From Desulfurobacteriaceae bacterium (GTDB lineage: Bacteria; Aquificota; Aquificia; Desulfurobacteriales; Desulfurobacteriaceae), in NCBI GenBank assembly GCA_027063785.1, contig JAMORC010000005.1:1-64000 (forward strand): a DNA stretch of 64,000 nucleotides, written 5' to 3'. The notes beneath the pieces were generated by a model. The model worked only from the letters and a program-made list of their open reading frames with translations, searched no databases and was not told the origin of the DNA. Positions 18,217 to 54,651 of this stretch are shown piece by piece. Position 1 is the first letter of the stretch; each line of letters starts with the position of its first letter. A program made the translations under genes and the position numbers.

Positions 18217-20526
18217 ATGGAAGAGCCGAGGATAGGAGTTGTTCTCTGCACCTGCGGTGATGTTCTCAAATCAAAAATAGATTTTGATTCTCTTAAAGCC
18301 TTTGCCGAAAGCCTTCCAGGTGTAGAAAAGGTAATAGTTACAAAGGACTTTTGCAAACAACCGGAAAAACAAGCAGCAGAACTAAAAGGTAGGGTGGATG
18401 CTTTAATCTTCGGGGGGTGTTCCGAAAGGTCGTCACTTCAGTTCAACGAAGACCGCATAGAAAAACTCATGGTAGCTTTGGGTTTAGACCCTGCGGCATG
18501 GGAAACGCTCAACCTGAGGGAACAGTGCTATTACATCCATGACGACGTAGAACAAATAAACAACAAAGTAAAAGACATGCTTTTAATGGCTTACGAAAAA
18601 GTTAAAACGAACGTTCCGGCGTTAAAAGAGGAAAATCTGAAGAAAAAAGTTTTAGTAGTTGGTGGAGGAGTGGCAGGTCAACGCTGCGCTCAAGCTTTAT
18701 CTGATTTGGGAATTGAAACCACGTTAGTTGAAGAGAAACCTTACCTCGGCGGCAACGCAGCGAGGATAGCTTTGCTGTGGCAGTCCGAATCTTCACCGTC
18801 ATTCTGCACAAGCGAGTGTGTAATTCCCGTTGTAGGCAGAGATACAATGATAAAAGATAACATTAAAGTAATGGTTAACTCTGAAATTGCCGGCGTTGTA
18901 AAGGAAAACGGCGATTTCAAAGTGAGAATACTGCAAAAAGCACAAAAAGTTGACCCGGCAAAGTGCATTTCCTGCGGTGAATGTGCAAAAGTATGTCCTG
19001 TTGAAATTCCTAATCCGTTTAATTTGGGTAAAACAAAGAGAAAAGCTATCGATAAAGATTTTCCCCTTGCAATTCCAGACTCTTACAACATTGTTGATTC
19101 AGCCTGCACTAATTGTGGAAAATGCGTAGAGGTTTGTCCGACAAACGCTATAGACCTAAACGCCGAAGATAAATACGTCGAAGACGAATTCGGCGCAATT
19201 GTGATAGCTACAGGAATCGGCGGGAAGGATATGAGTGCCTATGAAGAACTGGGATACAAGTATCCTGAAGTTGTAACGCTATTTGAATATGAAAGATACG
19301 TAGCAAACAACTTTTTCGGAAGAAAACCGAAAGAAATAGCCTTTGTTTTATGTAAAAAAGATGATGTGGGTTACTGTTCAAGACTTTGTTGTCTTGCTAC
19401 CGTTAAGGTAGCAGCAATACTTGCCAAAAATCATCCGGATGTGAAGGTGAAAGTCTTTTACAGAAGTTTGAGAACGACGGGAAGAGCGTTCGAAGAACTG
19501 AGAAGAAGAGCCGAAAAAGGCGGCGTTGAATTCATAGAAGAGGTAATAGAAAGGATAGAAAAGGACGAGAACGGAAGGCTTCTAATTAAAGGAGAAAAAG
19601 GAACTTACTCATCGGAAATGGCTGTTTTGGCAGAACCTTTAATTCCGTCTCAAATAAAACTTACCAACATGCTTAACGTTCAAACTGACCAATTCGGATT
19701 TCCTCTGGAATTCCAACCAAGGGTAATTAACCCTATAGAAACATACGTTGAAAGAGTTTTCGTAGCAGGAAGTGCAAAAGGATTCAAAGATGTTCAGGAA
19801 AGTATTGAATCAGGCTTAGGGGCAGCAGTTAGGGTTTATAAGGCGTTAAAAGGGCAGAACAAGAAGTATTACTCGATAATAGACCAGGAGAAGTGTTCAA
19901 GATGCGAAACATGCTTAATGTGCTGTCCCCACGGTGCTATAAGCCTTAAAAATGCTGAAAGTGAAGAAAAAACAATCGTGGAAATAGACCCCAATTTGTG
20001 TAGAGGATGCGGTCTTTGTTACTCAGCATGTCCTTCAAAGGCAATTAAGTTTTCCAACCTCGAAGATGAACAACTAATAAAAATGGCTGAAGTTGCATTT
20101 AAACACCTACCGAAAGACAAGCCGAGAATTCTGGCATTCCTGTGTTACTGGTGTGCATACGGAGCGGCAGACCTTATGGGTATGAAGCTAAAAGAAAAGC
20201 TACCGGAAAACTTTAGGAGCATAAGGGTAAGGTGTTCTGCTTCTTTAAGCCTTGACGTCATAGCCGAAATTATTGAAAGAGATTTGGCTGACGGAATTAT
20301 TGTTGCGGGATGTCCCAAAGATAACTGCCACCACATCTGGGGCAACTACATGCAGGAAAACAGGATAGAAATGTTCAATGAATCCTTAAAAATGTTGGGA
20401 GTGAACGACAAAATCGTTCGCTGGGAGTACATCGGTGTTCCAAACGGTAAGAAACTTGCCAATGCGATAAGGGAAGTTAACGAAATTCTCCTAAAAGTTA
20501 AAGGAGGTAGCCATGTCGAAGCCTAA
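18217..20526 (+). CDS. hdrA: HdrA-like flavin/iron-sulfur subunit fused to an MvhD domain
   Basis: Heterodisulfide-reductase A homologue, a flavoprotein that can bifurcate electrons in methanogens and related bacteria. The FAD motif VLVVGGGVAGQRCAQ is near residue 145. Ferredoxin-type cluster motifs are CISCGECAKVCPVE, CTNCGKCVEVCPTNA, CSRCETCLMCCPHG and CRGCGLCYSACPSK. The C terminus (from about residue 635, FLCYWCAYGAADLMG) is an MvhD/FrhD module that links HdrA to hydrogenase. I choose ATG 18217, preceded by GGAGAGG. It overlaps the hydrogenase small-subunit gene by 14 bases. HdrB and HdrC are missing from the window, so the second electron acceptor is unknown. Confidence 0.92.
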   Translation: MEEPRIGVVLCTCGDVLKSKIDFDSLKAFAESLPGVEKVIVTKDFCKQPEKQAAELKGRVDALIFGGCSERSSLQFNEDRIEKLMVALGLDPAAWETLNLREQCYYIHDDVEQINNKVKDMLLMAYEKVKTNVPALKEENLKKKVLVVGGGVAGQRCAQALSDLGIETTLVEEKPYLGGNAARIALLWQSESSPSFCTSECVIPVVGRDTMIKDNIKVMVNSEIAGVVKENGDFKVRILQKAQKVDPAKCISCGECAKVCPVEIPNPFNLGKTKRKAIDKDFPLAIPDSYNIVDSACTNCGKCVEVCPTNAIDLNAEDKYVEDEFGAIVIATGIGGKDMSAYEELGYKYPEVVTLFEYERYVANNFFGRKPKEIAFVLCKKDDVGYCSRLCCLATVKVAAILAKNHPDVKVKVFYRSLRTTGRAFEELRRRAEKGGVEFIEEVIERIEKDENGRLLIKGEKGTYSSEMAVLAEPLIPSQIKLTNMLNVQTDQFGFPLEFQPRVINPIETYVERVFVAGSAKGFKDVQESIESGLGAAVRVYKALKGQNKKYYSIIDQEKCSRCETCLMCCPHGAISLKNAESEEKTIVEIDPNLCRGCGLCYSACPSKAIKFSNLEDEQLIKMAEVAFKHLPKDKPRILAFLCYWCAYGAADLMGMKLKEKLPENFRSIRVRCSASLSLDVIAEIIERDLADGIIVAGCPKDNCHHIWGNYMQENRIEMFNESLKMLGVNDKIVRWEYIGVPNGKKLANAIREVNEILLKVKGGSHVEA

Positions 20527-21463
20527 ATTTGCTTATTACTTAGCCGGCGGATGCGCCGGATGTGATACGTCATTAGTGGATACTTCGAAGAAGTTAGTGG
20601 AATTTTTGGAAAACGTTGAGTTAGTGTTTTTTGCACCGACAATAGCGGACTTTAAATATAAAGATTTAGAAGCGCTTCCGGACAATTCTATAGATTTCGG
20701 GTTTTTCAGCGGAAACGTTAGAAGTTCGGAGCATGAGCACATAGCAAAATTAATGAGAAGAAAATGTAAAACGCTTGTCGCTTTCGGTATATGCGCAAGT
20801 TTAGGCGGAATAAAAGGACTCGTTAATCTTCATTCACAAAAGGAGCTTATGGAAAAAGCTTATGTTGATACTCCTTCAACGGACAATCCAGAAAAAATCC
20901 TCCCCACCCCCCACTGCACCGTTGACGGCAAATACGACCTTGAACTGCCCGTTCTTAAACCGGCCAAAGCGTTAGACCAAGTAGTAGAAGTTGACTACTA
21001 CGTCGGCGGATGTCCGCCGTCTTACGGCCACATTAAATGGATTCTAGAAAAGCTGTTGTCTGGTGACCTACCGCCTAAAGGCAGCTGGCTTACAATGGGT
21101 AAAGCCGTCTGTGACGTTTGTCCCAGAAACCCCATAAGACACGGCGGTATCAAAAAACGCCCAACAGAAGTTAAAAGAGTTTTGGGTGAAATGCCGGAAG
21201 ATGTCTGTTTACTTGAAGCAGGTTACCTCTGCCTCGGACCTGTAACCTTGGGCGACTGCGATGCAGCATGTTTGAAAGTAAACATTCCATGTAGGGGGTG
21301 CGGCGGTCCAATACCGGGAGTGAGGGACTTCGGCGTTAAAGCCATAAGCACCATAGCTACAGCTATGGGAAGCCTTGATGCCCTCAAGAAAGTTCCAGAC
21401 CCAATGCACCTGTTCTACAGGTACAGCTTGCCGAAATCATCGGTACTTAAACCAAAAGAATAG
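20513..21463 (+). CDS. mvhG: [NiFe]-hydrogenase small subunit, MvhG-like (group 3c)
   Basis: Electron-transfer subunit of a cytosolic hydrogenase. Proximal-cluster ligands appear in GGCAGCDTSL, FGICASLGG and VGGCPPSYGHI; further cysteines in VCDVCPRNP, CLGPVTLGDCDAAC and CRGCGGPIPG supply the other two [4Fe-4S] clusters. No twin-arginine signal is present, so it is cytoplasmic. The length of 316 fits MvhG/VhuG. ATG 20513 follows AAAGGAGG. It passes electrons to the MvhD end of the adjacent HdrA fusion. Confidence 0.92.
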   Translation: MSKPKFAYYLAGGCAGCDTSLVDTSKKLVEFLENVELVFFAPTIADFKYKDLEALPDNSIDFGFFSGNVRSSEHEHIAKLMRRKCKTLVAFGICASLGGIKGLVNLHSQKELMEKAYVDTPSTDNPEKILPTPHCTVDGKYDLELPVLKPAKALDQVVEVDYYVGGCPPSYGHIKWILEKLLSGDLPPKGSWLTMGKAVCDVCPRNPIRHGGIKKRPTEVKRVLGEMPEDVCLLEAGYLCLGPVTLGDCDAACLKVNIPCRGCGGPIPGVRDFGVKAISTIATAMGSLDALKKVPDPMHLFYRYSLPKSSVLKPKE

Positions 21464-21475
21464 TTGGAGGAAGCG

Positions 21476-22933
21476 ATGAGAAAGGCCGAAATAGAACCAA
21501 TCACAAGACTTGAAGGTCACGGCAAAATAACAGTTTTCCTTGACGATAACGGAAACGTTGAAAATGCCTTCCTTCAAGTTGTCGAATTTATGGGATACGA
21601 AAAGTTCCTACAAGGAATGCCCATAGAAGAAGTTCCGAGAACCGCAAGCACTATTTGCGGTGTTTGCAGAGCCGTTCACTTCTCTGCGGCTTTAAAAGCC
21701 GCCGATCAAATATTTTCCGCCGAACCCCCTCCTGCGGCAAAGAAAATCAGAGAACTCCTGCTTTTGGCCCATCACGTAGAAGACCATACAGAAATTCTTT
21801 ACGCGTTAGGTTTACCAGATTTCATTTGCGGACCGACAGCACCGCCTCAGGAAAGAAACTTAATTGGCGTGGCTAAAAAGGTAGGAAAGGAATTGGTAAA
21901 AGACGTTCTCCAAAAACGCTTCTCTGCGGCAAAAATAGTAGAAATTTTAGGCGGCAAACCTGTTCATCCCGTTGCTGCAGTGCCGGGCGGTTGGTCCAAA
22001 AAGGTAACCGAAGAGGAAAAAGCCGAAATAGAAAAGCTTTCCGATGACCTTTTAGAACTCGGGAAGATGACGGTTGAACTGTTTAAAGAAGTTGTAGTTA
22101 AAAACCCCGAATACTCAAAACTCCTGAAAGAGGAAAGCTTTAACGTTGTTACAAACTATATGGGAACGGTTGACGAAAATAACAAGGTTACCTATTACGA
22201 CGGCACCCAAGTAGTTGTATCCCCGGAAGGCAGGGAAATAGTCAGGTTCAAAGGGAAAGAATACTTAGACGTTTTAGCAGAAAAAACGCTTCCTTGGAGC
22301 TATGCTAAATTCCCATATCTCAAACGGAAAGGCTGGAGAGGGCTGGAAGACGGAAAAGATACTCACCTGTGCAGTGTAGGACCTTTGGCGCGATTCAACG
22401 CTTCAGACGGTTATTCAACACCTTTAGCCCAAAAAGCGTACGAAGAAATGATCGAGTTCTTCGGAGAGAAACCAGTCTACAACATTTTCGCCTACCATTG
22501 GGCAAGGGCAATAGAAATTCTTAACCAGGCGGAACTGATAAAAGAACTGCTTAAATCACCGGAGCTTACAGACGAAAAAGTTGTAACACCTCCGGGTAAA
22601 GTTACCGGTGAAGGCGTTGGAATTATCGAAGCGCCAAGGGGAACGCTCATTCATCACTACCGGACAGATGAAAACGGACTCGTAACAGACGCCAACCTGA
22701 TAGTGCCGACCACCATAAACAACGGCTCAATTCAGGTAGCTGTAAGAAAAGCTGCAAAATATTTCATCAAAGACGGTAAAGTTGACGAAGGGACTCTTAA
22801 CCTGATAGAAATGGCTCACAGACCTTACGACTTGTGTTTAGCCTGTGCAACCCACGCTTACCCGGGACACTATCCTACAAACGTTATTATCTATAAAAAC
22901 GGCAAGAGAATAAAGGAATTGAGGAACTATTGA
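21476..22933 (+). CDS. mvhA: [NiFe]-hydrogenase large subunit, MvhA-like (group 3c)
   Basis: Carries the NiFe active site. The N-terminal ligand pair is TICGVCRAVH near residue 57 and the C-terminal pair is CLACATH near residue 461, preceded by D-L rather than the usual D-P. About 25 residues follow the His; these are expected to be cut off by the maturation protease encoded next. I prefer ATG 21476, just after GGAGGAAGCG; a TTG at 21464 precedes that site. Both C-terminal ligands are ordinary cysteines here, unlike the selenoprotein HydA elsewhere in the window. Confidence 0.92.
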   Translation: MRKAEIEPITRLEGHGKITVFLDDNGNVENAFLQVVEFMGYEKFLQGMPIEEVPRTASTICGVCRAVHFSAALKAADQIFSAEPPPAAKKIRELLLLAHHVEDHTEILYALGLPDFICGPTAPPQERNLIGVAKKVGKELVKDVLQKRFSAAKIVEILGGKPVHPVAAVPGGWSKKVTEEEKAEIEKLSDDLLELGKMTVELFKEVVVKNPEYSKLLKEESFNVVTNYMGTVDENNKVTYYDGTQVVVSPEGREIVRFKGKEYLDVLAEKTLPWSYAKFPYLKRKGWRGLEDGKDTHLCSVGPLARFNASDGYSTPLAQKAYEEMIEFFGEKPVYNIFAYHWARAIEILNQAELIKELLKSPELTDEKVVTPPGKVTGEGVGIIEAPRGTLIHHYRTDENGLVTDANLIVPTTINNGSIQVAVRKAAKYFIKDGKVDEGTLNLIEMAHRPYDLCLACATHAYPGHYPTNVIIYKNGKRIKELRNY

Positions 22934-48286: not shown

Positions 48287-50142
48287 ATCAGGCCACCTCC
48301 GAGAACGAGAGTGATAATGAAGAGGGCAACTGCCGCCGTTTCAATGAGGGGCTCAACCTGGGAAACGCAGAAGAAGTTGTAAGTTCCCAGTGTCGTCTCT
48401 ACCCTTTCTCCACAGGTATACTCGTAAACCCTGTCAACCTCCGGAAAGTGAACAAAGTAGGCAAAAATCGGAACTATTAAGAGGAGGATAAAAGCTCCGA
48501 TAATCTGCCAGCCGTAAACTTCCGAAAGAGGAGTAATCAGAGTAAGGCCGGAAGCTTTAACCGGAGCCGGAGATGAAGATATCGAAGCAACAACAGCATT
48601 TACAAAATCGGCAGAGAGGTGGGCTATGAAAATTGAACCGACTATCGTAAAGAGGGCAAGAAGCCCTGCTGTAGAAAGGTAAATAAAGGGCAGTTTCTCG
48701 AGCTTAAAGCGCATAAATTCACCCCTTTTCCTTGTCATAACGCCGATAACCTTAAAGTAAAGGAGGGTCAGGATTACGCTGCCGGTAGCGATGAAGATAA
48801 TTGAACCGACGTAAGCGCCGTGGGAGAGGAAGTTTGAAGCTTCTTCAAGGGTAAGCCACTTGGCCATAAAGATTCCATAAGGAACGATTGTCATACTCAT
48901 AAAGCCGATGGAGATAAAGACAACCGTTATCGGAGCTTTCTCAACAAGACGCCTGATTTCCTCTATGTACTTTGCCTTAAAGAGCTTCTCTATAACGCCG
49001 GCTTCCATAAAGAGGAGGGCCTTGACAACTGCGTGAAAGAGTATCAGGAGAAGAGAAGCCAGAACGGCAGTAGGACTTCCCATGGAGGCCGTCAGCATCA
49101 TAAGGCCGAGGAGGGAAATCGTAGAGTAAGCAAGGATTTTCTTGAAATTATCCTGGGTAAGGGCAAGTAACCCCGCAGAAACGAAGACGAAGCCTGTTGT
49201 AACGATTAAGAGCTTTGCGAGGAGCGTTCCTTTTATTACCGGAGAAAGCCTTAGTATCAGGTAGGGGGCTATCTTAACCATCGTTGCAGAGTGGAGAATT
49301 GCACTGACGGGAGTCGGAGCTACCATCGCACCAAGGAGCCAGCGATGAAACGGCATCTGGGCTCCTTTAACGAGGGCTGCAATGGCAAGAAATCCCAGCG
49401 GGATCATCGACGTAACGGCAGGGTTAACCTTTAAGATATCTGTAAAGCTGTAAACGCTGTAGTACTTTATGCCGAAGAGGAGTGCAAGGAGAATTGCTAT
49501 CCCCCCTATCTGGTTCATCCAGAGGGCTTGGAGGGCGTTCGAGATGGAAACCGAATCCCACCTGAACCTGATCAGCACGTAAGAGGCAAGCGTTGTTGTC
49601 TCAAATAGGGCAAAGAACCATTCGACATTGTTAACAGAGACCGCAAAGTTCATAACGCCAAGAAACCAAAGAAGCGCGGCAACGAAACGGTTTTCCCTGT
49701 CCAGATCTTCCTGCTCCATGTACTTGGTGGCATAGATGCAGATCAGAGAACCGACAGTTGCGACGATGAAGTACATAAAAGTAGTGAGGCCATCAACGTA
49801 TATGGGCGGGGTTTCCCCGTGAGGGATAATAAGGAGAACCCAGGAGAGCAGAAAAAGCTGGGCAGCGGCAAGAACGGAAACGAGGAAGTTCCTGAACTTT
49901 ATCCCCTGATAGAGGAAGTAGAGAAGAAGTCCGTAATCAAAGAGAGTAACGGCGAGATTTACCCATTCAGGAGGCGTAATGAAAAGCGGAAGCTTTAAGT
50001 TCCAGACCTTGAAAGAGAGGTAGGTTAGAATCGGGAAAGAGAGAAAAGTAATGAGCTGTCTCAACCTGTGAAAGGGAGAAACAAAGACGAGGAGTGCAAG
50101 GAGCCAGGGAAGCAAGAAGAGGGAATAAATCACCTTCTCCAT
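48283..50142 (-). CDS. Membrane-bound hydrogenase antiporter-like subunit (EchA/NuoL/HyfB-like)
   Basis: A 619-residue protein with many transmembrane helices, of the Mrp/NuoL antiporter family, expected to move protons or sodium. Conserved spots include VNNVEWFFALFETTTLASYVL with its membrane Glu, LVKGAQMPFHRWLLGAMVAP (the Lys of TM7 and the PFHxWLxxAM signature) and ILHSATMVK. The lateral helix of full NuoL is not evident. The start overlaps the cNMP-binding gene by 13 bases. Confidence 0.92.
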   Translation of the reverse strand: MEKVIYSLFLLPWLLALLVFVSPFHRLRQLITFLSFPILTYLSFKVWNLKLPLFITPPEWVNLAVTLFDYGLLLYFLYQGIKFRNFLVSVLAAAQLFLLSWVLLIIPHGETPPIYVDGLTTFMYFIVATVGSLICIYATKYMEQEDLDRENRFVAALLWFLGVMNFAVSVNNVEWFFALFETTTLASYVLIRFRWDSVSISNALQALWMNQIGGIAILLALLFGIKYYSVYSFTDILKVNPAVTSMIPLGFLAIAALVKGAQMPFHRWLLGAMVAPTPVSAILHSATMVKIAPYLILRLSPVIKGTLLAKLLIVTTGFVFVSAGLLALTQDNFKKILAYSTISLLGLMMLTASMGSPTAVLASLLLILFHAVVKALLFMEAGVIEKLFKAKYIEEIRRLVEKAPITVVFISIGFMSMTIVPYGIFMAKWLTLEEASNFLSHGAYVGSIIFIATGSVILTLLYFKVIGVMTRKRGEFMRFKLEKLPFIYLSTAGLLALFTIVGSIFIAHLSADFVNAVVASISSSPAPVKASGLTLITPLSEVYGWQIIGAFILLLIVPIFAYFVHFPEVDRVYEYTCGERVETTLGTYNFFCVSQVEPLIETAAVALFIITLVLGGGLI

Positions 50143-50615
50143 TGTAAACCTCCCGGAACCGAGAAGAATCCGCAGACCTGAGAGAATTTCATGTCTTCCG
50201 ACTTGAGTCTCTCAGAGAGGATTTTGACTATAAGCTCTAAGAGTTTAAGAAGAACAGAAGGAGCTTCCTCCTTTAAGCAGGAAAAGCTCTTCCTATCAAT
50301 CCTGAAAGCTTTCACTTTCGACTCTGCAACAGCCCGTAAAGAGTGAGGCTTACCGAGGAGAAAAGCACATTCTCCGAGGGGCGTTCCTCCGTAAACAACG
50401 GCTATTTTCGTCCACCTGCCGAAGTTATCGCTCCTGTAAAGGCCGACCTTACCTTCCTTTAAAAGGTAAAAGGCATCTGCCGGGGAAAATTCATCAAAAA
50501 GAATTTCTCCTTCCTCAAAACTCACCCTCTCCAGATAGCAGGAAAGGATTTCTTTCTCTTCATCGCTCAGGCCTTCGAGAAGCCTGCACTCCTCAATCTC
50601 CCTCCTGTCTATCAC
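50130..50615 (-). CDS. Cyclic-nucleotide-binding-domain protein without DNA-binding domain
   Basis: A 161-residue protein with one CRP-like beta-roll (LSDEEKEILSCYLERVSFEE, then LLKEGKVGLYR and the phosphate cassette PLGECAFLLGKPHSLRA). No helix-turn-helix follows; the last 50 residues are a helix and short tail. So it is probably a ligand-sensing regulator of protein activity rather than a transcription factor. The GTG start at 50615 (AAGGAGG upstream) lies within the read-through tail of hydA. It sits exactly between two hydrogenase modules. Confidence 0.85.
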   Translation of the reverse strand: MIDRREIEECRLLEGLSDEEKEILSCYLERVSFEEGEILFDEFSPADAFYLLKEGKVGLYRSDNFGRWTKIAVVYGGTPLGECAFLLGKPHSLRAVAESKVKAFRIDRKSFSCLKEEAPSVLLKLLELIVKILSERLKSEDMKFSQVCGFFSVPGGLQWRR

Positions 50616-51918
50616 GATTCCTCCTTATCCTTACCGTTTCAAACTTTCCACCAAACTGGTGGACTGCACAGGCTATTCAGGGGTCGTAAGCCCTGACGAG
50701 CATTTCCGCCCGCTTTTTAAGCTCGGAATCGGGGAGATGCAGGTCTTTTTCAACGAGGGAAGCAAGGTTTTCCTCTATAACGGCCTGAAGCTGAGCCGTC
50801 GGCGTAATTATGTTTGCTCCGATGCACCTGCCGTTTTCATCAAAAGCGTAACGGTGGTAAAGGGTTCCCCTCGGTGCTTCCTTTACTCCGTAACCTTCAC
50901 CCTTTTTCGGCTCAAGGGGAACTTCCGGTTCAAAGGGGTAAGCGTTAAGCAACCTCTCTACGGTTTCGATACCGAGAAATCCGGCTTCCAGTAACTCAAC
51001 TGCCCTGGCAAGGTTAGAAAGGAACGGATTACTGGAAGGGAGAGCATTCTTGAGCTTTTTGATTTCCTCTTTCACGGAGGGATGGTAGGAATCTAAAGCC
51101 CTATTGACTCTTGCCAAGGGTCCGATTAGAAAGGCTTTTCCTTTAATTGTTGACCTTTTGGCAGTGCTGTAAGGAGAAACCTCCTCTTCTACAAAGAATT
51201 CATACTCTCTCTTTGTAAAAACTGTTCCGTCGGAAATCTCTAATTCTTCGCAGAGAGAGCCGAAATGTCCTCCTTTTAGTGAAAGTTCATAATTATGGGG
51301 TGAGTTAGCCTCAGGATAGTTGAGGGAATCGAAGAGCGAAAGAGTTGCCTTCAGCTCCGGAATAATCCCGTAAAGGTCATCCCTTATCCTCTCAAGCTGT
51401 TCTTTTTCCGGAATCGATTTAAAACCGCCGGCAAGGACGTTTTCGCCGTGAACGGTCTTGCCGGCTATTGTCTTCATTATCCGGTTGCCTACCTCTTTTA
51501 TTGCAAATCCCCTCTTAACAATGTTGGGGTAATCTTTTGCCATCTCTATTGCACTGCCGTAGCCCATGTAATCAGGAAGTGCTAAGAAGTAAAGGTGAAG
51601 GGCGTGGCTCTCAAGGTATTCTCCGACTATAAGGAGCTTCCTGAGAAGCTTTATCTCTTCCGTAACTTCAACGCCAAAGGCGTCCTCTATCGCCATAGAA
51701 GAAGCAAGCCTGTGGGAAACGTAGCAGATACCGCAGATTCTCGAGACGATTTTCGGAATTTCTGTGTAGAGCCTTTCTCTGGTTATGTATTCAAAGAACC
51801 TCGGGCCTTCGGTAAACCTGAGTCTTATCTCTTTCAAGGCACTACCGTCGATAACTATGTCAACGGCACCGTGCCCTTCCACTCGCGAAAGGTGGTTAAC
51901 GTTAAGCTCCCTTTTCAT
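50593..51918 (-). CDS. hydA: [NiFeSe]-hydrogenase large subunit HydA (group 3b sulfhydrogenase), selenoprotein
   Basis: NAD(P)-linked hydrogenase catalytic subunit. N-terminal nickel ligands are in SRICGICYVSH near residue 63. The frame reaches LVRAYDP and then TGA at codon 414 (50677-50679); the frame continues I-A-C-A-V-H, giving DPU-x2-C-x2-H, the C-terminal nickel motif with selenocysteine for the first Cys. A 7-bp hairpin follows (see SECIS). Read-through ends at TGA 50593, leaving a 21-residue tail after the His, as expected for protease processing. ATG 51918 follows GGGGAG. The order hydB-G-D-A equals that of Pyrococcus hydrogenase I. Annotation software would likely truncate it at the TGA. 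Confidence 0.9.
50647..50679 (-). promoter_or_regulatory. Selenocysteine UGA codon and bacterial-type SECIS hairpin
   Basis: On the transcribed strand, UGA is followed by 13 bases and then UCCACCA-GUU-UGGUGGA (50663-50647): a perfect seven-base-pair stem with an apical loop holding G-U. The apical loop is about 20 bases after UGA, within the usual range for SelB-dependent insertion in bacteria. No selA, selB, selC or selD is in this window. Confidence 0.8.
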
Positions 51919-52675
51919 CCACTACTCCCCTAACCTTTATTTCTTTGGCTGTATAGCCCCTGAAAACCTTGAGGAACTTGACGGCGTCTTCGACGGAAAG
52001 TCCCCTCTGAGTTAAGAGAGAAACCATTTCTTCAAAGTTGGGAAAGTCACAGTTGCCCCTACACCCCTGGCATCCGACTCCGGCGGACGTGCACGGAGCG
52101 CCGCACCCGGAAAAAGTAACCGGGCCTTGGCAGGGAATTCCTTTAAGGATCAGGCACTCGTTCTCCGACAGCTTGCACTCGTGACAGACGGGAATCTTCG
52201 GGAAGAACGGCTTAACTCCGCTAAGGAGTGAAGCAACGGTGTAAACAAACTGCTTCTTATCGAGGGGACAGCCGGGAAGTTCGTAATCTACCTCAACAAC
52301 CTCTGAAACAGCCCTGGGCTTTGAGACCTTAACAGGAACTCCCTTTTCCCCGTAAACTGCTTTGACCATTTCCGTTAGGGAAACCTCATCGTTTCTCTGA
52401 GACTGAACGCCTCCGTAACAGGCACAGCTTCCGATAGCAACGAGGAGAGAAGAAACTTCCCTGCCTTTCTTTACTTTTCTTTCATCTTCTTCCGTCGTTA
52501 CAGAACCTTCGACAAAAAGGATGTCAAGATCTTCTAAAGAGTTATCGTCCTGTGCGAGAGGAAAGAAGTTTATTGAGACCCGTTTAAGCATCTTCAGGAG
52601 GGCTTCCTGACAGTTTAAAATTTCACACTGACAACCGGAACAGCCGGTTAGTCCCATAATTCCTATCCTGACCAT
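51902..52675 (-). CDS. hydD: Sulfhydrogenase small (delta) subunit
   Basis: A 257-residue iron-sulfur subunit. Proximal-cluster Cys are in LTGCSGCQCEIL, AIGSCACYGG and YELPGCPLDKKQF; other cysteines in VCHECKLSENEC and CQGPVTFSGCGAPCTSAGVGC (spread from residue 165) bind two further [4Fe-4S] clusters. No export signal, so it is cytoplasmic. Its start touches the hydG stop and its end overlaps hydA by 17 bases. Confidence 0.92.
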   Translation of the reverse strand: MVRIGIMGLTGCSGCQCEILNCQEALLKMLKRVSINFFPLAQDDNSLEDLDILFVEGSVTTEEDERKVKKGREVSSLLVAIGSCACYGGVQSQRNDEVSLTEMVKAVYGEKGVPVKVSKPRAVSEVVEVDYELPGCPLDKKQFVYTVASLLSGVKPFFPKIPVCHECKLSENECLILKGIPCQGPVTFSGCGAPCTSAGVGCQGCRGNCDFPNFEEMVSLLTQRGLSVEDAVKFLKVFRGYTAKEIKVRGVVDEKGA

Positions 52676-53553
52676 CAGATCATCTCCGGAAGGTTTTTTG
52701 TGTCCCAGAGTGGAAAGACCGGACCGTCAATGCAGGCAAACTTGTAGCCTATCTGACAGTGTCCGCACTTGCCGATACCGCACTCCATTTTTCTCTCAAG
52801 GGAAACAAAAATCTGGCTTTCCGGATAACCATGCTTTAGAAGCTCCTTTCCGATAAACCTGTAAGCAACGGGAGGTCCGCAAACGGCAACGAAAGTCTCG
52901 GACGGTTCAAGCTCGACCATAGGAATCAGCTCGGTAAGAAGCCCTTTCCTGTCGGCCCACCTCCTGTCTTCTTCAGTTTCGAACTTGTCGAGGGTATAGA
53001 GACATTTCAGGTCATTCCTTTCCCTCAACCGTTTTAACTCCTCTTTGTAGAGGACATACTCGTAACTCCGTGTTCCGTATAGGATGTAAACCTCCTTGAA
53101 GCGGTGGCGCCTGTCCAGTATGTACCAGATGAGTGAACGAAGGGGCGCTATGCCGAGACCTCCGGCTATAATTAAGACGTTATGTCCCTCCATAATTCCG
53201 ACGGGAAAGCCGTTACCGTAAGGTCCCCTGATTGCGACGTAGTCCCCGGGTTTCAACCTGTGGAGGACTTCCGTTTTTCTACCGACTTTCCTTACGGTTA
53301 GCTCCACAGTTCCTTTTCTGGTCGGGGAAGAACAGATGGAAATGGGAATTTCTCCGGCTCCAGGAACCGTCAGCATTACAAACTGGCCGGGAATGTGATT
53401 CCAGGAGTCGTTAACTGATTCGTCGCAAAAGGCAAAGGAGAACTTTTTGTGATCGGGAGCAAGCTCTTCAATGTCCGTAATTACTGCCCTCTGGGGCATA
53501 AAAGGGTCAACGGGAAGAGGCTTGTTCAGTAGCTTCTCTAAGCTCTTTTTCAT
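52675..53553 (-). CDS. hydG: Sulfhydrogenase gamma subunit (FAD/NAD(P) and [2Fe-2S])
   Basis: Ferredoxin-NADP reductase-type protein of 292 residues. The FAD region has GQFVMLTVPG and PISICSSP, the pyridine-nucleotide region has IIAGGLGIAPLRS near residue 130 and VCGPPVAYRFIG, and the C terminus binds a [2Fe-2S] cluster through MECGIGKCGHCQIG and a final Cys (FACIDGP). It exchanges electrons with NAD(P)H. ATG 53553 follows GAGGGG and overlaps hydB by 47 bases. The family includes AsrB of sulfite reductase, but the hydrogenase context decides. Confidence 0.92.
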   Translation of the reverse strand: MKKSLEKLLNKPLPVDPFMPQRAVITDIEELAPDHKKFSFAFCDESVNDSWNHIPGQFVMLTVPGAGEIPISICSSPTRKGTVELTVRKVGRKTEVLHRLKPGDYVAIRGPYGNGFPVGIMEGHNVLIIAGGLGIAPLRSLIWYILDRRHRFKEVYILYGTRSYEYVLYKEELKRLRERNDLKCLYTLDKFETEEDRRWADRKGLLTELIPMVELEPSETFVAVCGPPVAYRFIGKELLKHGYPESQIFVSLERKMECGIGKCGHCQIGYKFACIDGPVFPLWDTKNLPEMI

Positions 53554-54589
53554 CTATACCCCTCAAGCGGTTTATTGTTTCGACGATGCTTATCCCAGCC
53601 GGACACTCGGCACTGCACCTACCGCAGCCGACGCAACCGAGCTTTTCTATCTGGTACGGATAACCGACAAACTTGTGATAGTAACGGTGTTTAAACCTGC
53701 TGGCTCTATCGGGTTTGAAGTAGTGCCCTCCGGCAACGAGAGAGTAGTAGGGATATTGACAGGAAGTTGTAAACTCGATTCTCTTGACTTTCTTTCCGTC
53801 TAAAGTTGGAACGTCAACGCTCGTGTAACAGAAGCAGGTGGGACAAACATTGGTGCAGGTTCCGCATCCTAGGCATCTTTCCGATCCCTCTTTCCATACT
53901 TCTGAGTCGTATTCAAGCTCTATTAGCTGTGAAATCCTTTCGAGGTCGGGAAGTTTCTCAAGCTTAAAGGCCTTTTTCTTCTTGGAAGTTGATTCTTTAT
54001 AAAGGTAAAGGTCTTTTTTCTCTATATCCTTAAACAACTTCCTCAACTTTAAAACAATTTCGTCTCCCTTGGGGCTTCCTATGGTAACGAAGTAGTCGGC
54101 ACCTATGTCGGTAAGGAATAAGTCCCAGTTAGCACCGTCGGGAAAGGCCGTTCCCGTAGAGAGGCAAAAGCAAAATTCATCGGGCATACAGGAAATTCCT
54201 ATAAGGACTGTCCTTTTTCTAATTTCCAGGTAGCGGGGATCGGGATTTTCCTTTAAGTAAACCGAATCGAGAATGGATATTCCGTGAAGGTCACAGGAAT
54301 GAACTCCGAAAATAATCTGGTCTCTGACTTTAAATTCTTTATTAAACTGAAGAGTATCGGTAGAGTAGGAAAACCTTTCCCTCCTGTAAGGCACCAGAAA
54401 CTTCTTGGGAGGCAAAATTGTCCTTGTATAGTTAACCGCTACATCTGAAACTTTTTCTATCTCAGAAAAGATGAACTTATCACCCTTTTTTACCGGGGCA
54501 ATAAGAGTCGAGAGGTTCTTCAAACCTTCCAGAAATTTCGCTAAATTGGATTTGGGCAGAACCTTTGCCCTTTCTATGTGGAAATCCAA
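53507..54589 (-). CDS. hydB: Sulfhydrogenase beta subunit (iron-sulfur, AsrA-like)
   Basis: A 360-residue protein with two ferredoxin-type motifs, CLGCGTCTNVCPTCFC near residue 240 and CVGCGRCSAECPAGI near 325, plus a Cys-rich middle part (GISCMPDEFCFC). In Pyrococcus this subunit carries electrons between the NAD(P) and NiFe sites and has sulfur-reducing activity. I choose TTG 54589 with GGAGG five bases upstream; a longer frame starting at 54637 would include the promoter -10. First gene of the 10-kb operon. Confidence 0.9.
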   Translation of the reverse strand: MDFHIERAKVLPKSNLAKFLEGLKNLSTLIAPVKKGDKFIFSEIEKVSDVAVNYTRTILPPKKFLVPYRRERFSYSTDTLQFNKEFKVRDQIIFGVHSCDLHGISILDSVYLKENPDPRYLEIRKRTVLIGISCMPDEFCFCLSTGTAFPDGANWDLFLTDIGADYFVTIGSPKGDEIVLKLRKLFKDIEKKDLYLYKESTSKKKKAFKLEKLPDLERISQLIELEYDSEVWKEGSERCLGCGTCTNVCPTCFCYTSVDVPTLDGKKVKRIEFTTSCQYPYYSLVAGGHYFKPDRASRFKHRYYHKFVGYPYQIEKLGCVGCGRCSAECPAGISIVETINRLRGIDEKELREATEQASSR

Positions 54590-54622
54590 CTTTTCCTCCG
54601 CGAAGCGGTTGTTAGTAAGATT

Positions 54623-54651
54623 TTTATATAACATCAAATTTATTTAGTCAA
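54623..54651 (-). promoter_or_regulatory. Sigma-70 type promoter of the hyd operon
   Basis: On the minus strand TTGACT (54651-54646), a 17-base spacer and TATAAA (54628-54623) form a near-consensus promoter. Transcription should start near 54616, 27 bases before the preferred hydB start codon. No other good promoter was seen down to 44784. Confidence 0.7.

Follow-up and report, generated by a model that had tools for sequence, protein, structure and literature searches.

In a 64,000-nucleotide stretch of DNA from a Desulfurobacteriaceae bacterium (GCA_027063785.1, contig JAMORC010000005.1; hereafter the window), a hydrogen-handling enzyme of hot-vent bacteria is seemingly cut short by a stop codon. 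Is the hydrogenase large subunit HydA encoded there a truncated protein, or does the UGA at its end carry another meaning? The HydA frame comprises 413 codons (51918..50677, minus strand) and ends in LVRAYDP, directly followed by a TGA at 50679-50677. Past this TGA the frame reads IACAVHQFGGKFETVRIRRNRDRQEGD and stays open for 27 more codons up to a second in-frame TGA at 50595-50593, the left edge of the interval flagged in an earlier interpretation made from the letters alone (the sequence-only reading). That reading had placed the first TGA between LVRAYDP and IACAVH, where the nickel motif has its first Cys; it was correct in all details that we checked (Table 1). Its proposal that HydA is a hidden selenoprotein is supported by the presence of sel genes and by the conservation of UGA, IACAVH and a hairpin in relatives. 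With a probability of about 0.95, the product of hydA is the large subunit of a group 3b hydrogenase that is linked to NAD(P) and carries selenocysteine (Sec) at a terminal nickel ligand, where relatives have Cys.

Table 1. Features of the hyd locus and of other probable selenoprotein genes; positions refer to the window unless a locus or contig is named.
Feature	Position	Strand	Remarks
hydB, beta subunit, 4Fe-4S	53507..54637	-	Start codon uncertain; NCBIfam ShyB 316, HydB 313 bits; Pfam Fer4_22
hydG, gamma subunit, FAD/NAD(P)-binding	52675..53553	-	NCBIfam PRK08345 329, ShyC 270, HydG 258 bits
hydD, delta (small hydrogenase) subunit	51902..52675	-	NCBIfam sulfhyd_HydD 195 bits, below cut-off; Pfam Oxidored_q6
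hydA, group 3b hydrogenase large (alpha) subunit	50593..51918	-	413 codons + predicted Sec414 + 27 codons + stop
HydA N-terminal nickel motif CGIC (C62, C65)	51724..51735	-	Alignment columns invariant
hydA UGA codon 414, predicted Sec	50677..50679	-	First Cys of C-terminal DPCxxCxxH nickel motif
hydA coding part past UGA: IACAVH (remaining nickel motif) and C-terminal tail	50596..50676	-	IACAVHQFGG invariant in 14 UGA genomes
bSECIS hairpin UCCACC-AGUUU-GGUGGA	50647..50663	-	7 bp, loop GUU, if A-U closes
hydA true stop TGA	50593..50595	-	
Ferredoxin-like protein, 4Fe-4S domains	L153:100-708; G000 contig 39:40100-40708	+	UGA codon 85, FCKIVCPEDAFL-U-GINCSS
Giant multihaem CxxCH proteins, 1489 and 1323 aa	L163:5498-9964, contig 9; L233:4090-8058, contig 15 (G000)	-	
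Sec peroxiredoxin (TFV-U-PTE)	L237:12333-12971, G000 contig 23	-	7-bp hairpin, loop GGUC

The assignment to group 3b, also made by the sequence-only reading, holds by sequence, structure and operon. A profile search against solved structures gives 361-366 bits for the sulfhydrogenase alpha subunits of Pyrococcus furiosus and Thermococcus kodakarensis, with the next group, MvhA, at 229, and Foldseek with the AlphaFold model of HydA (pLDDT 84, tail disordered) ranks P. furiosus soluble hydrogenase I (SHI) first at a TM of 0.89/0.94. The large subunit is closest to characterised 3b enzymes, and its operon, in the order hydBGDA, places an Fe-S beta subunit, an FAD/NAD(P) gamma subunit (Pfam FAD_binding_6, NAD_binding_1 and DHODB_Fe-S_bind) and a delta subunit ahead of hydA, with an Ech-type cluster downstream. 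The same hyd/Ech-type arrangement occurs in Thermovibrio ammonificans, whose hydABCD was assigned to group 3b; the authors of that genome considered HydA unique to the family, and Sec in HydA goes unmentioned (PMC5441870). One rival grants the insertion of Sec but places the enzyme in a group with known [NiFeSe] members, 3a or 3c. It can draw on NCBIfam scores (ShyA 344 bits, HydA 311 bits; Pfam PF00374) that both lie under the 3b equivalog cut-offs, and on a lineage that sits on its own branch; but the profile, sequence and structure matches all lead to sulfhydrogenase alpha, the FAD/NAD(P) subunit stands ahead of hydA, and the published classification agrees, leaving this rival very improbable. 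As HydA falls below the cut-offs of the characterised sulfhydrogenases, the exact electron partner of the group 3b enzyme is presumed.

How does HydA compare with hydrogenases that are already understood? Its closest counterpart is the soluble hydrogenase I (sulfhydrogenase, 3b; PDB 9nez, 9nf0, 9e15, 5yxy) of P. furiosus and T. kodakarensis, which likewise has four subunits including an NAD(P)-binding one and whose DPCISCSVH aligns with DPUIACAVH, but which carries Cys at the U414 position, has no SECIS and is about 38% identical in the structural match. The group 1a [NiFeSe] enzymes (Desulfovibrio HysA, Desulfomicrobium baculatum) share with HydA the position of Sec at the C-terminal ligand and bacterial UGA/SECIS decoding, whereas they are periplasmic, have other subunits and are only about 21-23% identical in the structural match. 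The methanogen [NiFeSe] enzymes Frh and Vhu (3a, 3c) are likewise Sec-containing members of group 3 (HydDB Table 1, PMC5037454) but differ in an archaeal SECIS that usually lies in the 3' UTR (PMC13188914), in F420 or heterodisulfide reductase partners and in clearly lower scores against HydA.

The strongest argument for Sec comes from the relatives. Across 22 genomes of the family, UGA at codon 414 with IACAVH behind it is found in 14, spanning 6 genera. A sister genus (g4, G010-G013) has TGT or TGC at this codon in all 4 genomes; of the remaining family genomes, one has a hydA sequence that breaks off ahead of codon 414, and three lack a full-length homologue. The g4 enzyme, a Cys-type group 3b HydA, is 57% identical and has a recognisably homologous C-terminal tail (MFGA.FETLK..R), but it has no hairpin. 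UGA 414 aligns with the Cys of this genus and of the P. furiosus and T. kodakarensis enzymes, so that the predicted Sec codon of this putative [NiFeSe] enzyme lies on a conserved nickel-ligand Cys. In the rest of the phylum, no homologue that reaches the nickel motif has an in-frame stop, and Cys is found in all phylum homologues read directly as well as in the named archaeal and bacterial loci reaching the motif; sampling of group 3b in other phyla consisted of one genome-contig scan with 30 loci, in which every locus from outside the Desulfurobacteriaceae that extends to the motif has Cys. The HydA homologues thus include the Sec/Cys pair by which a bacterial selenoprotein gene is recognised. 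The U/C exchange among relatives that the sequence-only reading had suggested looking for was found, with IACAVH kept behind the UGA instead of proteins that simply end at DP. A sequencing or assembly error was rejected as the source of the UGA, as 14 separately assembled genomes agree and one of them (G009) is a single contig.

The codons themselves carry a further signal. The 14 UGA genes share 170 codons with an invariant degenerate residue, of which 7 use a single codon throughout; five of these seven are codons 417, 419, 420, 421 and 423 (TGT, GTC, CAC, CAG, GGT), and 419, 420, 421 and 423 are inside the hydA hairpin or at its margin, the hairpin covering Val419 to Gly424. None of 20000 residue-matched random draws was as conserved as codons 419-424. 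Codons 415, 416, 418 and 422 vary synonymously, as is expected of translated sequence past the UGA. These observations bear on a rival reading, in which the UGA truly terminates translation and leaves HydA truncated, decayed or non-catalytic. In its favor, a gene caller does terminate HydA at this ordinary stop codon, but two nickel ligands would then be lost, and yet IACAVH is invariant in 14 genomes, synonymous changes continue past the UGA, the rest of the protein is 66-70% identical among UGA genomes and the Sel genes are present, which makes a real stop very hard to believe.

In the tree, the putative Sec hydA genes form one clade with a support of 100/100, which, as few non-3b references were included, speaks for a single Sec clade and not for the hydrogenase group. 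A single gain of Sec in HydA fits these sequences best. An earlier gain, in the ancestor of the whole family and followed by reversion to Cys in g4, is a less favored history that keeps some likelihood, as the position of g4 in the tree has weak support (85/75).

Decoding UGA as Sec calls for dedicated machinery. The source genome has a tRNA-Sec (83 bits; ARAGORN anticodon TCA), and its selA, selB and selD score above curated cut-offs; all four sel genes, selA, selB, selC and selD, are therefore present, and the absence that the sequence-only reading had named as evidence against Sec was not seen. The machinery is found nearly throughout the family, with tRNA-Sec in 20/22 genomes, selD in 21/22, and selA and selB similarly widespread. 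That tRNA-Sec occurs in Desulfurobacteriaceae was already known (PMC4227106). SelD is itself a selenoprotein (ASG-U-GAK; L175 around 17294, minus strand, G000 contig 21), as are all 21 SelD of the family, each selD gene holding one TGA. Sec formate dehydrogenase occurs in only two family genomes (L105 in G015 and L106 in G009). The other fdhA matches of the family, including both of the source genome, are without TGA, and formate dehydrogenase was thus rejected as the reason for Sec in the source genome. The g4 genomes keep selA, selB, tRNA-Sec and the Sec-type selD.

But what would direct Sec to this particular UGA? The hairpin UCCACCAGUUUGGUGGA (50663-50647) starts 13 nt past the TGA and has a 7-bp stem and a GUU loop, as the sequence-only reading had described it; folding bears this out with -9.0 kcal/mol. 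Published rules for a bSECIS ask for a loop of 3-9 nt, a stem of 4-16 bp, a G at loop position 1 or 2, a distance of 16-37 nt between UGA and loop, and an MFE <= -7.5 (PMC13188914). The hydA hairpin satisfies every one of them, with the loop AGUUU (5 nt), a 6-bp stem, G in second place, a distance of 19 nt and a core of -9.0 kcal/mol. Rfam has no model that matched it, and the 53-nt fold at the hydA UGA has z = -1.15, the wider fold being not unusually stable. A 6-bp hairpin follows 42/2007 TGAs of the window and a 7-bp one 11/2007; the hairpin alone was rejected as proof of Sec, as 6-7 bp stems occur at such a distance after 0.5-2% of TGAs. The hairpin is present in 14/14 UGA hydA genes, with the loop AGUUU or AGUUC, and in 0/4 Cys genes. 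Its near invariance among homologues means that base-pair covariation cannot be demonstrated. We regard this comparative conservation, beyond the hairpin of one sequence, as strong evidence. Near-cognate tRNAs do cause some UGA read-through in bacteria, but decoding by a Trp or Cys tRNA into an ordinary [NiFe] enzyme has next to no probability here, as the site is a metal-ligand Cys that Trp would destroy, a dedicated tRNA-Sec and SelB exist, and the SECIS-like hairpin accompanies the UGA genes and is missing from the Cys genes. We conclude that the hydA UGA almost certainly inserts Sec.

The hydA hairpin resembles those of the other Sec genes in the family. In selD the loop is GGUC or AGUU at 17 nt past the UGA (21/21 genes), in Sec-fdhA GGUCU at 18 nt (2/2 genes) and in hydA AGUUU or AGUUC at 19 nt. 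Of 2006 window TGAs, a single one, the hydA UGA, is followed at 17-20 nt by an RGUY-loop hairpin, although this rule derives jointly from selD, fdhA and hydA, partly after seeing the hydA hairpin, and is not independent of hydA. Applied as for hydA to 1.5697 Mb of the source genome with 47753 TGAs, the hairpin rule gave 37 matches. The matches flanked on either side by long open frames are HydA, SelD, a peroxiredoxin, two giant multihaem cytochromes and a ferredoxin. SelD and the peroxiredoxin belong to known selenoprotein kinds (for the latter, NCBIfam PrxU is closest, below cut-off), and their recovery counts in favor of the rule.

The ferredoxin and the giant cytochromes are probable selenoproteins by their conservation. 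The ferredoxin UGA is kept in 18/18 family genomes with the gene, most with a SECIS-like hairpin; none was matched in L274, L283 and L285. In the giant cytochromes, the UGA stands in W-U-PPSYRQLAAKK, the hairpin CCGCCAGTTGGCGG is invariant, and the UGA is found in 14/14 genomes with the main form and in the paralogue, family-wide save g4. In the g4 genomes (G010-G013), neither fdhA nor the ferredoxin nor the giant cytochrome was matched. Multihaem selenoproteins are already known (ExtKL, TIGR04315), and the giant cytochromes are possibly a new selenoprotein family. Measured against the 2026 review, which does not list the ferredoxin kind, the unlisted kinds are group 3b HydA, the 8Fe-type U85 ferredoxin and the W-U-PPSY giant multihaem cytochromes (PMC13188914). 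The conservation of ferredoxin and cytochromes supports a common hairpin code and the view that HydA is one of several unreported probable selenoproteins. It is likely that in the Desulfurobacteriaceae one such code, an RGUY loop 16-19 nt past the UGA, serves a set of redox selenoproteins, these unlisted kinds included.

Sequence and comparison provide the UGA on the Cys site, the conserved peptide and hairpin, the sel genes, the operon and the single Sec clade; the mechanism that we infer would then be as follows. SelB with Sec-tRNA(Sec) would decode the in-frame UGA, with the hairpin 13-29 nt downstream offering the kind of RGUY loop also seen in selD and fdhA of the family. Past the UGA, translation would add IACAVH and the tail, the Se of Sec414 would bind nickel, and a maturation protease would cleave after His420, removing HydA from Gln421 on. 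By analogy with Pyrococcus SHI, the tail is probably cleaved off during maturation: the solved chains have 428 and 424 residues, and the 424-residue form ends at the motif His, which fits cleavage at this point. After the motif His, the P. furiosus and T. kodakarensis enzymes have 3-4 residues, as against 21 after His420 here; the tail is short in other 3b enzymes too. As the hairpin covers Val419 to Gly424, it would lie mostly within the part probably removed, where an RNA element would cost little protein function. The physiological direction of the enzyme we likewise infer.

The Pyrococcus soluble hydrogenase, studied for NADPH-driven hydrogen production, belongs to group 3b. With a naturally occurring Se form and its Cys sisters in one family, the effect of Se could be tested directly at the [NiFe] site of a cytoplasmic, NAD(P)-linked enzyme. 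The lineage also offers an exchange between Sec and Cys in which a SECIS hairpin was gained or lost within a probably cleaved tail. If annotation pipelines stop at the UGA, they yield a large subunit without two nickel ligands, seemingly defective. The sequence-only reading's view that Sec was not known in a bacterial group 3b enzyme is consistent with HydDB, which has [NiFeSe] variants under groups 1a, 3a and 3c and none under 3b (PMC5037454), and with the 2026 review, which restricts [NiFeSe] hydrogenases exclusively to sulfate reducers and methanogens and has no 3b enzyme in its table (PMC13188914); among the open-access papers searched, none was found to report a Sec group 3b enzyme. [NiFeSe] enzymes would thus extend past the limits set by that review. 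The higher activity and oxygen tolerance also proposed by that reading is conjecture: Sec engineered into a [NiFe] enzyme had a mixed effect, with O2 tolerance up and H2 oxidation down (review PMC9961374), and any advantage of Se in HydA is presumptive.

Other parts of the data deserve mention. Stops (TAA, TAG, TGA) inside other hydrogenase matches were rejected as Sec codons, being ordinary stops directly after the motif, and an FrhA-like protein was rejected as a selenoprotein because its C-terminus reads DPCIVCAAH-stop. The window holds a second [NiFe] hydrogenase, Vhu/Mvh-like (group 3c type), with small and large subunits at 20513-22933 (plus strand) and an ordinary Cys in DLCLACATH. Between hydA and the Ech-type cluster sits a protein with a cNMP-binding domain (50130-50615, minus strand), whose predicted GTG start gives a 23-nt overlap with the end of the read-through hydA frame.
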